DNA from: an uncultured Clostridia bacterium
GTDB taxonomy: Bacteria > Bacillota > Clostridia > Peptostreptococcales > Anaerovoracaceae
Length of the DNA: 64,000 bases
Direction of reading: 5' to 3'
Assembly: GCA_944383465.1 (NCBI GenBank)
Contig: CALWPQ010000033.1
Location: 1-64,000, forward strand
A program made the position numbers and the translations under genes. Below the pieces are notes generated by a model. It was not told the DNA's origin. It did no database searches and saw only the letters and a program-made list of their open reading frames with translations. Shown here piece by piece: positions 28,871 through 33,733 of the stretch (its first letter is position 1; each line of letters begins with the position of its first letter).

Positions 28871-29659
28871 TCAACGCAGATACTTAAAAATATTATAAAC
28901 ATTTATGCATATAATCAGCACCATACAAGCCTCCAACAAAAAGTTCGCCTGTTTATTATCTATGCGCTTGCTTATGCGTCTTCCTATTTCACTTCCTATT
29001 ATGCCGAAAAGCCCCATACCTATCAAAATTATTGGATCAAAATCCGGTATACCGCCCGTTATTACCGTCTTCAGCGTACTCGCAAGCTGGCTAAAAAGCA
29101 CTACAAACAAGCTGTTCTGCGTTGCCTTTTTCGTCGGCATCGAGAAAAAATACGTAAGTGCCGCCACATTAAACGGCCCGCCGCCGATACCGAGAAATGC
29201 TCCCAGCATTCCGAGAAGCAGCCCAATGACAAAGCTTACCGCTCGCGACTCTGCTTGTCTTGACTTTAATTTGTCTTTTCTGATTGTATAAATCAGCGTC
29301 AAAAAAGTCGCGGCCAAAAGCAGACACGCCTGTACGCCGCCAGCCATATTCCTGTCAGCAAAAAGCTCCGCCACAGCTATGTACATTTCCTTACCGAGCA
29401 GACCTCCTACAGCAGCTGCAAGTGCGAATATCGGCGTGCGCTTCATATCAAGCACATCTTCTTGCCTATAAAGAGCCCTGCTCACGCTCCAGCCGCTCAT
29501 AGCAATTACAGTGCAGCCCGATAAAAAGGTTATCGTATCTACGGTCATAACACCTGTCGCATCAAGCACCGGTTTTATGATAATACCGCCGCCCATGCCG
29601 CATATCGTGCCCAGCACGCAGGCAAAACATGTAACCGCATAACAAATTAAATAAACCAT
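28871..29659 (-). CDS. Sulfite exporter TauE/SafE family permease
   Basis: 262 residues, about eight hydrophobic segments. Two family repeats are visible: GTICGMGGGIIIKPVL near the N terminus and GMLGAFLGIGGGPFNVAAL in the second half. Members export organosulfur or sulfite-like anions; specificity is unknown. The gene starts 3 bases after the nadA stop, so it is co-transcribed with nadA and probably shares NiaR control, which is an unusual association. Confidence 0.9.
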   Translation of the reverse strand: MVYLICYAVTCFACVLGTICGMGGGIIIKPVLDATGVMTVDTITFLSGCTVIAMSGWSVSRALYRQEDVLDMKRTPIFALAAAVGGLLGKEMYIAVAELFADRNMAGGVQACLLLAATFLTLIYTIRKDKLKSRQAESRAVSFVIGLLLGMLGAFLGIGGGPFNVAALTYFFSMPTKKATQNSLFVVLFSQLASTLKTVITGGIPDFDPIILIGMGLFGIIGSEIGRRISKRIDNKQANFLLEACMVLIICINVYNIFKYLR

Positions 29660-29662
29660 AAC

Positions 29663-30580
29663 TTATCCAAGCTTCAGCATCATATCAATACACTTTCTCG
29701 CTTTCGTCATCACTTCACCAGAAAGCACGATTTCTTCGCCGCCTATACCTCGCACACAGTTATAGACCTCACCGAGTGTTGTCAGCTTCATATTCATACA
29801 CACGCATCCCTTTGAGAGCGGATAGAAACGCTTGTCCGGGCACTCGAACTGCAGATGCTGCACAATGCTGTTTTCTGTACCGATAATAAATTCTGAGGCG
29901 CTGCTGTTTCTCGCATAATCCATAATACCCGTGGTGCTTCCGATATAATCTGCAAGCTTTGCTACCTCAGGCACACACTCAGGATGAACAAGAAGCTCTG
30001 CCGCAGGATGCAGCTTCTTTGCCGCCTCGACATCGCGCACAGTCATTTTAGCGTGCGTCGGACAGCCGCCGTGCACGAGCTTTATATTCTTTTCCGGCAC
30101 CTGTTCAGCTACCCAGGCGCCAAGATTGCAGTCCGGAATAAAAAGAATATTTTTATTCTCAATATTTTTTACAATCTTCACCGCTGATGACGATGTCACG
30201 CACACATCGCACCGCGCTTTGAGCTCCGACGTTGTATTTATGTATGCGACCACCGTATAATCAGGGTACTGTTCTTTCATCGCGCGCAGCATTTCAAGGT
30301 CTATCTGCTCCGCCATCGGACAACCCGCCTGCGGATGCGACAGAATTGTCTTTTTATCCGGCGAAAGGAGCTTTACCGTTTCCGCCATAAAACGTACACC
30401 GCACATCAGTATTGTGCTCTGCGGCGCCTTTGCCGCCTCAAGCGAAAGACCGTAAGAATCGCCCACATAATCAGCTACTTCAAGTATATCCTGGCTCTGA
30501 TACGCGTGTGCAAGTATGCAAATATCATTTTCTTTTTTCAGCCTCAGAATCTCATCCTGAAGCTCCCTCGTTGTAAACAT
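29663..30580 (-). CDS. nadA: Quinolinate synthase A
   Basis: 305 residues from the ATG at 30580 (GGAAAGG about 9 bases upstream); the frame is open further but without a site. It condenses iminoaspartate and dihydroxyacetone phosphate to quinolinate using a [4Fe-4S] cluster. The three cluster cysteines appear in MCGVRFMAET, in VTSSSAVK/CNLGAW/GGCPTHAKM and in SKGCVCMNM. The HAYQS motif is at the N terminus. It is divergent from nadB-nadC and shares one operator/promoter region with them. Confidence 0.97.
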   Translation of the reverse strand: MFTTRELQDEILRLKKENDICILAHAYQSQDILEVADYVGDSYGLSLEAAKAPQSTILMCGVRFMAETVKLLSPDKKTILSHPQAGCPMAEQIDLEMLRAMKEQYPDYTVVAYINTTSELKARCDVCVTSSSAVKIVKNIENKNILFIPDCNLGAWVAEQVPEKNIKLVHGGCPTHAKMTVRDVEAAKKLHPAAELLVHPECVPEVAKLADYIGSTTGIMDYARNSSASEFIIGTENSIVQHLQFECPDKRFYPLSKGCVCMNMKLTTLGEVYNCVRGIGGEEIVLSGEVMTKARKCIDMMLKLG

Positions 30581-30739
30581 ATTTCTAACCTTTCCTATCT
30601 TGTTCTCGTAAACCTTGATGATCCCGTAACCCGGCAGCAAAGCGCCGATGAATTTACCAATAAATCAGCAAAATCAATAAAATAACTGACCTGATTATAT
30701 AAAAACTCTCGCTTTCTGTCAATACACAGCTTTACATTT

Positions 30740-30768
30740 ATCATAACAACTGTCTTGTCATATGACAA
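30740..30768 (-). promoter_or_regulatory. nadA promoter using the shared palindrome as -35
   Basis: On the minus strand TTGTCA (30763-30768), 17-bp spacer, TATGAT (30740-30745). The -35 box is one half of the palindrome at 30755-30768. Confidence 0.78.
30755..30768. promoter_or_regulatory. Perfect 14-bp palindrome, probable NiaR operator
   Basis: TTGTCATATGACAA is a perfect palindrome. Each half forms the -35 element of one of the two divergent promoters (nadA leftward, nadBC-niaR rightward). A dimeric repressor here would block both. NiaR, encoded at the end of the nadBC transcript, is the natural candidate, by analogy with the B. subtilis nicotinate-responsive repressor. Confidence 0.75.
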
Positions 30769-30783
30769 CTCTTATGTTATAAT
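30755..30783 (+). promoter_or_regulatory. nadB-nadC-niaR promoter using the shared palindrome as -35
   Basis: TTGTCA (30755-30760), 17-bp spacer, TATAAT (30778-30783) on the plus strand. Confidence 0.85.
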
Positions 30784-30890: not shown

Positions 30891-32201
30891 ATGAAAACCG
30901 ATGTTTTAATTGTCGGAAGCGGCTGCAGCGGCCTTTACTGCGCGCTCAGGCTTCCGCGGGAAAAGAAAATTACTATTATCACCAAAGCCGATCTCGAAAG
31001 CAGCGATTCATTTCTCGCTCAGGGCGGAATATGCGTACTGCGCGGCGAGGCTGACTACGATGCTTATTTTGAAGACACTATGCGCGCCGGACACTACGAA
31101 AATGACAAAACCTCAGTCGATATTATGCTGCGCTCATCACAGCGCGTTATCGCAGACCTTGTAGACTGCGGCGTGCTGTTTGAACGCGACAAAGACGGAG
31201 CCTTTCTATATACACGCGAGGGCGCGCATTCAAATAACCGCATTCTGTTCCACAAAGACATCACCGGAAAGGAAATCACGAGTAAGCTCCTTGCCGCAGT
31301 CAAAAAGCTTCCTAATGTCACGATAATTGAAAATACAACGCTTCTCGATGTCATCGAGCATGAAAGCACATGCTTTGGCGCGGTTGTCCGCAATGCAGCC
31401 GGAAATACAGAAATCATCGAAGCCGATTTTACCGTGCTTGCAACAGGCGGCATCGGCGGCCTGTTCCGCCACTCGACAAATTTCCGCCATCTGACAGGTG
31501 ATGCGCTTGCCATAGCTGTAAAGCACGATATTGAACTCGAAAACATCAATTATATACAGGTACATCCAACAACTTTTTATTCACCGCAAAATAAAGACCG
31601 CAGCTTTCTCATCTCCGAATCTGTACGCGGTGAAGGAGCAAAGCTCTACGGTAAGGATATGAAGCGTTTTGCCGACGAGCTGCTTCCAAGAGACAAGCTC
31701 ACCTCTGCAATACGTGAGCAGATGAAAAAAGACGGCACTGAATTTGTCTGGGAAGATTTAAGAACAATCCCGCCGGATGAGCTTTACGGCCATTTCCCCA
31801 ATATAATCGCGCACTGCGCCGAAATGGGCTATGACGTAACAAAAGAATGCATTCCCGTAGTGCCTGCACAGCACTATTTTATGGGCGGCATCAAAGTGGA
31901 CTACGAAAGCCGCACCACGATGACAAGCCTCTATGCTGTAGGTGAAACAGCCTGCAACCGCGTACACGGCAGAAATCGCCTCGCCAGCAATTCGCTTCTT
32001 GAAAGTATGGTATTTTCCGGCAGAGCCGCAGATGATATCGCAGAAAAAAGTGAATCACAGGCAGAAAAGGCAGAGGCAAAAACACAAGCCATCGGCGCTG
32101 TAGACCTTTCAATTTATAAAAATTACGACAAAATCAAAGAAGAATATAAATCACTTGTTCTCGGCGCCATAGAAAAGGCGAACGCTATCAATCCGTTTTA
32201 A
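30891..32201 (+). CDS. nadB: L-aspartate oxidase
   Basis: 436 residues. It oxidises aspartate to iminoaspartate; in anaerobes the flavin is reoxidised with fumarate. The FAD motif DVLIVGSGCSGLYCAL starts the protein; SFLAQGGICVL, HSNNRILFHKDITGKEI, ATGGIGGLFRHSTN and the substrate motif VHGRNRLASNSLLE follow. It is shorter than E. coli NadB (540) because the C-terminal helical domain is reduced, as in several Clostridia. First gene of nadB-nadC-niaR. Confidence 0.96.
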   Translation: MKTDVLIVGSGCSGLYCALRLPREKKITIITKADLESSDSFLAQGGICVLRGEADYDAYFEDTMRAGHYENDKTSVDIMLRSSQRVIADLVDCGVLFERDKDGAFLYTREGAHSNNRILFHKDITGKEITSKLLAAVKKLPNVTIIENTTLLDVIEHESTCFGAVVRNAAGNTEIIEADFTVLATGGIGGLFRHSTNFRHLTGDALAIAVKHDIELENINYIQVHPTTFYSPQNKDRSFLISESVRGEGAKLYGKDMKRFADELLPRDKLTSAIREQMKKDGTEFVWEDLRTIPPDELYGHFPNIIAHCAEMGYDVTKECIPVVPAQHYFMGGIKVDYESRTTMTSLYAVGETACNRVHGRNRLASNSLLESMVFSGRAADDIAEKSESQAEKAEAKTQAIGAVDLSIYKNYDKIKEEYKSLVLGAIEKANAINPF

Positions 32202-32250: not shown

Positions 32251-33111
32251 ATGTTTGATCCCGTAACACTTAAATTAAATGTAGATCCGCTCATTATGAG
32301 CGCCCTCCGCGATGATATTTCCGGAGAAGACGTATCGACAAACAGCGTTATGCCGCATGCTCAGGCAGGCGAAGCCGACCTTATCTGCAAAGAAGACGGT
32401 ATCATCTGTGGACTGCAAGTTTTTGAACGTGTTTTTTTGCTGCTCGATAATGCCACAACGGCTGAATTCTTTGTAAATGACGGCGACGCCGTTAAAAAAG
32501 GCCAGCTTCTCGGAAAAATCCGCGGCGATATCCGCATCCTTCTATCCGGTGAGCGTACGGCTTTAAATTATCTCCAGCGCATGAGCGGCATCGCAACATA
32601 CACGCATTCGGTTGTCAGCCTTCTCGACGGTACGAGTATCAAGCTTCTCGACACCAGAAAAACATCGCCGAATAACCGCATATTTGAAAAATACGCAGTG
32701 CGCGCAGGAGGGGGAAATAATCACAGGTACAACCTCTCAGACGGAGTTATGCTGAAAGATAACCATATCGGCGCCGCCGGAGGCGTAAAGAATGCTGTTT
32801 TAATGGCCAAGGCATACGCGCCTTTTGTCCGCAAAATTGAAGTCGAAGTTGAAAATATGAATATGGTAAAAGAAGCTGTCGCAGCCGGCGCTGATATCAT
32901 AATGCTCGACAATATGACTCACGAGCAGATGAAAGAAGCTATTTCATACATCGCGGGCAGAGCCGAAGTTGAAGTTTCAGGAAACGTCACTAAAGAAAAT
33001 ATTATCGCACTCGCAGATCTCGGCGTAGATTACATTTCGAGCGGCGCGCTTACACATTCCGCTCCTATCCTCGATATTTCACTCAAAAATCTGCATCCGA
33101 TTACCGAGTAA
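32251..33111 (+). CDS. nadC: Nicotinate-nucleotide pyrophosphorylase (carboxylating)
   Basis: 286 residues. It converts quinolinate and PRPP to nicotinate mononucleotide. Conserved parts are DDISGEDVSTNSV, GERTALNYLQRMSGIAT, DTRKTSPNNR (substrate arginines), AVRAGGGNNHRYNLSDGVMLKDNHI and VEVSGNVTKENI. It lies 49 bases after nadB on the same transcript; AAAGGA precedes the ATG. Confidence 0.97.
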   Translation: MFDPVTLKLNVDPLIMSALRDDISGEDVSTNSVMPHAQAGEADLICKEDGIICGLQVFERVFLLLDNATTAEFFVNDGDAVKKGQLLGKIRGDIRILLSGERTALNYLQRMSGIATYTHSVVSLLDGTSIKLLDTRKTSPNNRIFEKYAVRAGGGNNHRYNLSDGVMLKDNHIGAAGGVKNAVLMAKAYAPFVRKIEVEVENMNMVKEAVAAGADIIMLDNMTHEQMKEAISYIAGRAEVEVSGNVTKENIIALADLGVDYISSGALTHSAPILDISLKNLHPITE

Positions 33112-33187: not shown

Positions 33188-33733
33188 ATGAATGGGGATA
33201 AGAGACGAAAACAACTTCTCAAAATACTTTTGGAAAGCGATAAGCCTGTCTCTGGCGGTACGCTAGCCGAAACCTTAAAGGTCAGCCGCCAGGTCATAGT
33301 GCAGGACATTGCGCTGCTCCGCGCAAACGGTTTAGACATACTTTCCGCAAGATATGGATATATGATGCTTCACAGGTCAGAGGAAGCAAGCAGAATTCTC
33401 AAAATGCACCACTCCGACAGAGAAACAGAAGCGGAACTCACTGCCATAGTCGACCTCGGCGGCAAAATCAAAGATGTATTTATATATCACAAGGTATACG
33501 GCATAGTCCGCGCCGACATGAATCTGCGTTCGCGCAAAGATATTGCCGAATTCATTGAAAAAATTCACTCCGGAAAATCAAGTCTGCTCAAAAACGCGAC
33601 TGCCGGATACCATTATCATACAATACTGGCTGACGATGAAAAAACCCTCGACGAAATTCAGGAAAAACTTGCGCAAATGGGAATGCTCGCCGAACTTCTC
33701 GACGATGAGCCCATCGATTTTTCCCGCAAATAA
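33188..33733 (+). CDS. niaR: NiaR-type transcriptional repressor (HTH_11 plus 3H domain)
   Basis: 181 residues. Residues 1-60 form a winged helix (LLESDKPVSGGTLAETLKVSRQVIVQDIALLR), and the rest is a 3H domain with its three histidines in FIYHKVYG, EKIHSG and AGYHYHT. In B. subtilis NiaR (YrxA) binds nicotinic acid and represses nad genes. Its place at the end of nadB-nadC and the palindrome over both promoters support autoregulated control of NAD synthesis. AAAGGAGG precedes the ATG. Confidence 0.94.
   Translation: MNGDKRRKQLLKILLESDKPVSGGTLAETLKVSRQVIVQDIALLRANGLDILSARYGYMMLHRSEEASRILKMHHSDRETEAELTAIVDLGGKIKDVFIYHKVYGIVRADMNLRSRKDIAEFIEKIHSGKSSLLKNATAGYHYHTILADDEKTLDEIQEKLAQMGMLAELLDDEPIDFSRK

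Follow-up and report, generated by a model that had tools for sequence, protein, structure and literature searches.

The 310-bp intergenic region between nadA and nadB in the window (that is, the whole 64,000-nucleotide stretch of DNA analysed, from an uncultured Clostridia bacterium) can be read with good confidence as a divergent NAD control region with two promoters and two operators, predicted to be repressed by NiaR; both arms are very probably under the control of NiaR acting at this region. Regulation of this kind, with NiaR governing de novo NAD synthesis, here in an uncultured clostridial bacterium, is ordinary vitamin control of an already understood type, and existing knowledge of NiaR is left unchanged. 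What is corrected, by means of comparative footprinting over about 48 relatives, is a tempting single-switch model, which two promoters and two operators replace. From the same comparison a clear NiaR consensus emerges for the gut/rumen Clostridia group concerned, useful for annotating NAD regulation.

Pfam and NCBIfam models confirm the gene order named in the original prediction, a leftward nadA-tauE arm facing a rightward nadB-nadC-niaR arm of which niaR is indeed the final gene:

28871 to 29659, minus strand: tauE, a TauE/SafE permease gene (PF01925), 3 bp past nadA
29663 to 30580, minus strand: nadA, quinolinate synthase (PF02445, E 2.7e-115; NF006878 above cut-off)
30891 to 32201, plus strand: nadB, L-aspartate oxidase (NF004820 above cut-off)
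32251 to 33111, plus strand: nadC (TIGR00078 above cut-off)
33188 to 33733, plus strand: niaR, a repressor with HTH_11 and 3H domains (PF02829 and PF08279 above cut-off)

The nadA start is the ATG at 30580, the frame being extendable to a TTG at 30640. Incidentally, a tauE-like permease gene beside nadA was seen in the window genome and its sister species only, among the loci first checked. The identity of the niaR product as NiaR is firmly indicated by its sequence: it has the architecture of the NiaR (YrxA) family, with an N-terminal HTH (PF08279) and a C-terminal 3H domain (PF02829), it aligns with the solved NiaR proteins 7cv0, 1j5y and 9ebr at E about 5e-33 (HMMER), with which it shares an identical recognition segment, SRQVIVQD, and all four metal/niacin residues of TmNiaR (His79, Glu87, His146 and His148) are identical in the same alignments.

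The elements of the control region are the following:

30694 to 30722, minus strand: nadA promoter, 12/12 to consensus, with -35 TTGACA (30722-30717), a 17-bp spacer and -10 TATAAT (30699-30694)
30717 to 30726, plus strand: candidate second NiaR core TGTCAATACA on the nadA -35, an exact TGT-N4-ACA, 9/10 to TGTCAAGACA, lying 34 bp away from the nadB-side core
30740 to 30768, minus strand: originally predicted leftward promoter-like site, TTGTCA-17-TATGAT (-10 at 30745-30740), 10/12 with TG, not conserved
30743 to 30768, plus strand: extended nadB-side candidate operator, ATAACA-AC-TGTCTTGTCA-TA-TGACAA, with outer and inner arms, the palindrome being its right-hand half
30751 to 30760, plus strand: nadB-side type I NiaR core TGTCTTGTCA, candidate operator on the nadB -35, TGT-N4-ACA with one mismatch, near-invariant in 46 relatives
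30755 to 30768, no strand: the originally flagged palindrome TTGTCATATGACAA, a perfect 14 bp, read in the sequence
30755 to 30783, plus strand: nadB promoter, 11/12, with -35 TTGTCA (30755-30760), a 17-bp spacer, extended -10 TG (30775-30776) and -10 TATAAT (30778-30783), kept in relatives

The letters of the palindrome are as originally described, with TTGTCA on both strands and, 17 bp away on each, a -10-like hexamer (TATAAT rightward, TATGAT leftward), both with the extended -10 TG. Likewise, the role of its hexamer as the -35 of nadB holds, and this -35 sits inside a NiaR box. That the palindrome should serve as the -35 of both operons does not hold, for nadA has a perfect and conserved promoter of its own, overlooked originally and lying 46 bp nearer nadA than the palindrome-anchored leftward site. 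The chance of a 12/12 leftward promoter in such a region is about 0.0005, that of a 10/12 promoter on one strand of such an intergenic about 10%. The comparative set comprised 49 divergent nadA/nadB intergenic regions, the window included, gathered from genome searches and GTDB contigs; in 48 of them the nadA promoter reaches 10-12 of 12, the palindrome-anchored leftward promoter being absent in 30, scoring 9 in 13 and 10 in 5, the window among these last. In the sister species (L031), the leftward -10 reads, by eye, CGTGAT, and the 12/12 nadA promoter is intact. Since nadA has a 12/12 promoter at 30722-30694, the palindrome-anchored leftward promoter is secondary at best. From the two conserved promoters, start sites can be predicted at about 30790 (plus strand) and 30687 (minus strand), some 103 bp apart, and therefore both polymerases could nearly fit together; the strict mutual exclusion that had been proposed is thus not required of two complete promoters so arranged.

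The type I NiaR box is TGT-N4-ACA (PMC7713382), and this core is present at the promoters on both sides, on the nadB side with one mismatch. In the nadB-side alignment (46 relatives), the core reads TGTCTTG(T/A)CA at 1.1-2.0 bits, with (T)TTACA-like outer arms before it and TGTAAA- or TGACAA-like ones after it, followed by TG-n-TATA(C/A)T; the layout of outer and inner arms in the extended operator matches the published type I operators TTTACATATGTCTTGACAT of B. halodurans and TACAATTGTCTTGACAATTGTA of S. pneumoniae (PMC7713382, PMC5343564). The mismatch in TGTCTTGTCA is a T, the commoner form there (31/46 relatives); as position 4 of the nadB -35 (TTGTCA) it departs both from the -35 consensus and from the symmetric NiaR box, and it may set promoter strength. 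On the nadA side, the box is weaker than its nadB-side counterpart, its outer arms being poor, and it is imperfect both in the window (TGTCAATACA) and in the sister species (TGTCAATATA). Its half beyond the -35 hexamer is less conserved (0.18-1.40 bits), and its conservation is owed partly to the -35 TTGACA alone. No type II operator (ACA-N5-TGT) was seen at either promoter when the sequence was read directly, nor does a separate NiaR box precede niaR in the nadC-niaR gap of about 76 bp. Exact TGTCTTGWCA occurs in 8 copies in the window genome, of which the nadB-side copy alone lies outside an ORF; a search of the genome for a wider NiaR regulon thus returned, apart from it, exact sites within ORFs only.

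A further line of evidence concerns the company that the box keeps. Among co-directional nadA-nadB operons, 42 of the 48 with an adjacent niaR and 5 of the 11 without a detected one have a box upstream of nadA; in the coding controls the figure is 2 of 147. Of the divergent genomes, the two that lack any box, L116 and L146, have no 3H protein and have kept both promoters, whereas all ten box-bearing genomes tested have a 3H protein. L116 and L146 are close relatives, so that the loss of box and NiaR probably amounts to about one evolutionary event, a control that is limited by genome completeness.

According to the preferred two-promoter, two-operator model, when niacin is plentiful, NiaR dimers loaded with zinc and niacin would sit over the -35 elements and so shut RNA polymerase out of the nadB and nadA promoters separately, whereby the output of both nadA-tauE and nadB-nadC-niaR would be reduced. 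NiaR binding, the niacin response, repression itself and the co-transcription of niaR are here, like the start sites, deduced from sequence. That a single repressor dimer shuts both arms, as had been held, is not supported, as the nadA -35 carries its own NiaR-type box. Because niaR sits inside the repressed operon, it would also limit its own level; in B. subtilis, too, the regulator gene lies inside the regulated locus.

How much the palindrome contributes was assessed on its own. TTGTCATATGACAA occurs a single time in the 1.72-Mb genome, up to 1 mismatch being allowed, yet perfect 14-bp palindromes number 7 in the window versus about 5 expected, and the chance of finding one in a 310-bp intergenic of like composition is about 3%; so near to chance, the bare palindrome is evidence of little weight. 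The motif search in related genomes that had been proposed as a check bears out a conserved NiaR box at the nadB -35, and does not bear out the right half of the palindrome or the leftward promoter. In the 46 relatives, that right half carries 0.05-0.54 bits, save one T at 1.05; TGTAAA stands at that place in 11 of them, and the right half is not kept even in the sister species, where the broken palindrome reads TTGTCATATATCAA. Mean symmetry in the relatives peaks at the box centre, 30755.5 (4.46/8 pairs), with 3.83/8 pairs at the palindrome centre, 30761.5, and a background of 2.13. The palindrome consists of the inner right arm, TTGTCA, and the outer right arm, TGACAA, of the nadB-side operator, and arises because the latter here mirrors the former; its symmetry is, as far as the alignment goes, a real yet subsidiary feature of the operator. 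The 14-bp palindrome was also considered as the NiaR operator itself, and rejected, its spacing being TGT-N6-ACA and not the type I TGT-N4-ACA and the symmetry being strongest at 30755.5.

The original proposal that the palindrome is one operator and the common -35 of two overlapping, mutually exclusive promoters accords with the presence of both hexamer pairs, with 17-bp spacers and extended -10s, and with the exact TTGTCANNTGACAA found in just 5/46 relatives, L095 and L170 among them having a 10/12 leftward pair starting from it; this reading is nonetheless highly improbable, given the N6 spacing, the perfect nadA promoter conserved elsewhere, the leftward promoter missing from 30/49 loci, and a sister species in which both the leftward -10 and the palindrome are degraded. 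A hybrid, in which the main nadA promoter at 30722-30694 is joined by a minor, species-specific palindrome promoter competing with nadB, the strong NiaR site at 30743-30768 acting on nadB as well as on the minor promoter, and the weak box on the main one, is unlikely but better placed: the leftward 10/12 site with its extended -10 is a fair sigma-A match, which is however not conserved and has the chance of about 10% given above for this intergenic. Comparably doubtful is the view that NiaR binds the nadB-side site only, nadA being constitutive or indirectly controlled and the nadA-side box a mere -35 consensus. The weak conservation of the nadA-side core beyond TGTCAA and its poor outer arms in the window speak for it; against it, many relatives have exact TGTCAAGACA, often with an outer TGTAAA arm, which exceeds what a -35 needs.

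As for known systems, nifS and nadBCA of B. subtilis and B. halodurans are divergent, with a common promoter region regulated by NiaR (YrxA) (PMC7713382), and resemble the window in being divergent NAD operons with type I boxes and repression by niacin-NiaR, both of which are predicted in the window; they differ in that here nadA-tauE faces nadB-nadC-niaR and the -35 of either promoter bears a separate box. The S. pneumoniae nadC region has two NiaR sites, R1 and R2, of which only R2 proved functional (PMC5343564); it shares with the window the layout TACA-NN-TGT-N4-ACA-NN-TGTA and two sites per promoter region (PMC5343564), but is transcribed in one direction only. E. coli bidirectional promoters (PMC12825309) likewise send divergent transcription out of one short region, yet they share a symmetric -10, whereas the window has two complete promoters with predicted starts about 103 bp apart and polymerase footprints that would barely overlap. 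A bidirectional promoter with a shared core element was rejected for the window: the conserved promoters share no element and the shared leftward site is not conserved.

The centre-to-centre distances between the two boxes (L031-L189) fall into groups of 12, 20-24 and 31-36 bp, with single cases at 66 and 97 and with 13-19 and 25-30 bp unused. A period near 11 bp beats uniform spacing at p below 0.001 (18 clusters at 75% nadB identity, shared ancestry partly remaining), and the 31-36 bp group covers half a helical turn; helix-phased spacing is, on these distances, only a lead. That two NiaR dimers might sit on the same face of the helix and bind cooperatively, thereby coupling both NAD arms, is correspondingly a tentative idea, and rather an improbable one.

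Finally, the window genome carries a nicotinate phosphoribosyltransferase-like gene (PF04095; L199, C31:39137-39697), near which no box of at least 9/10 was seen, and which suggests that niacin salvage may be possible in this organism.
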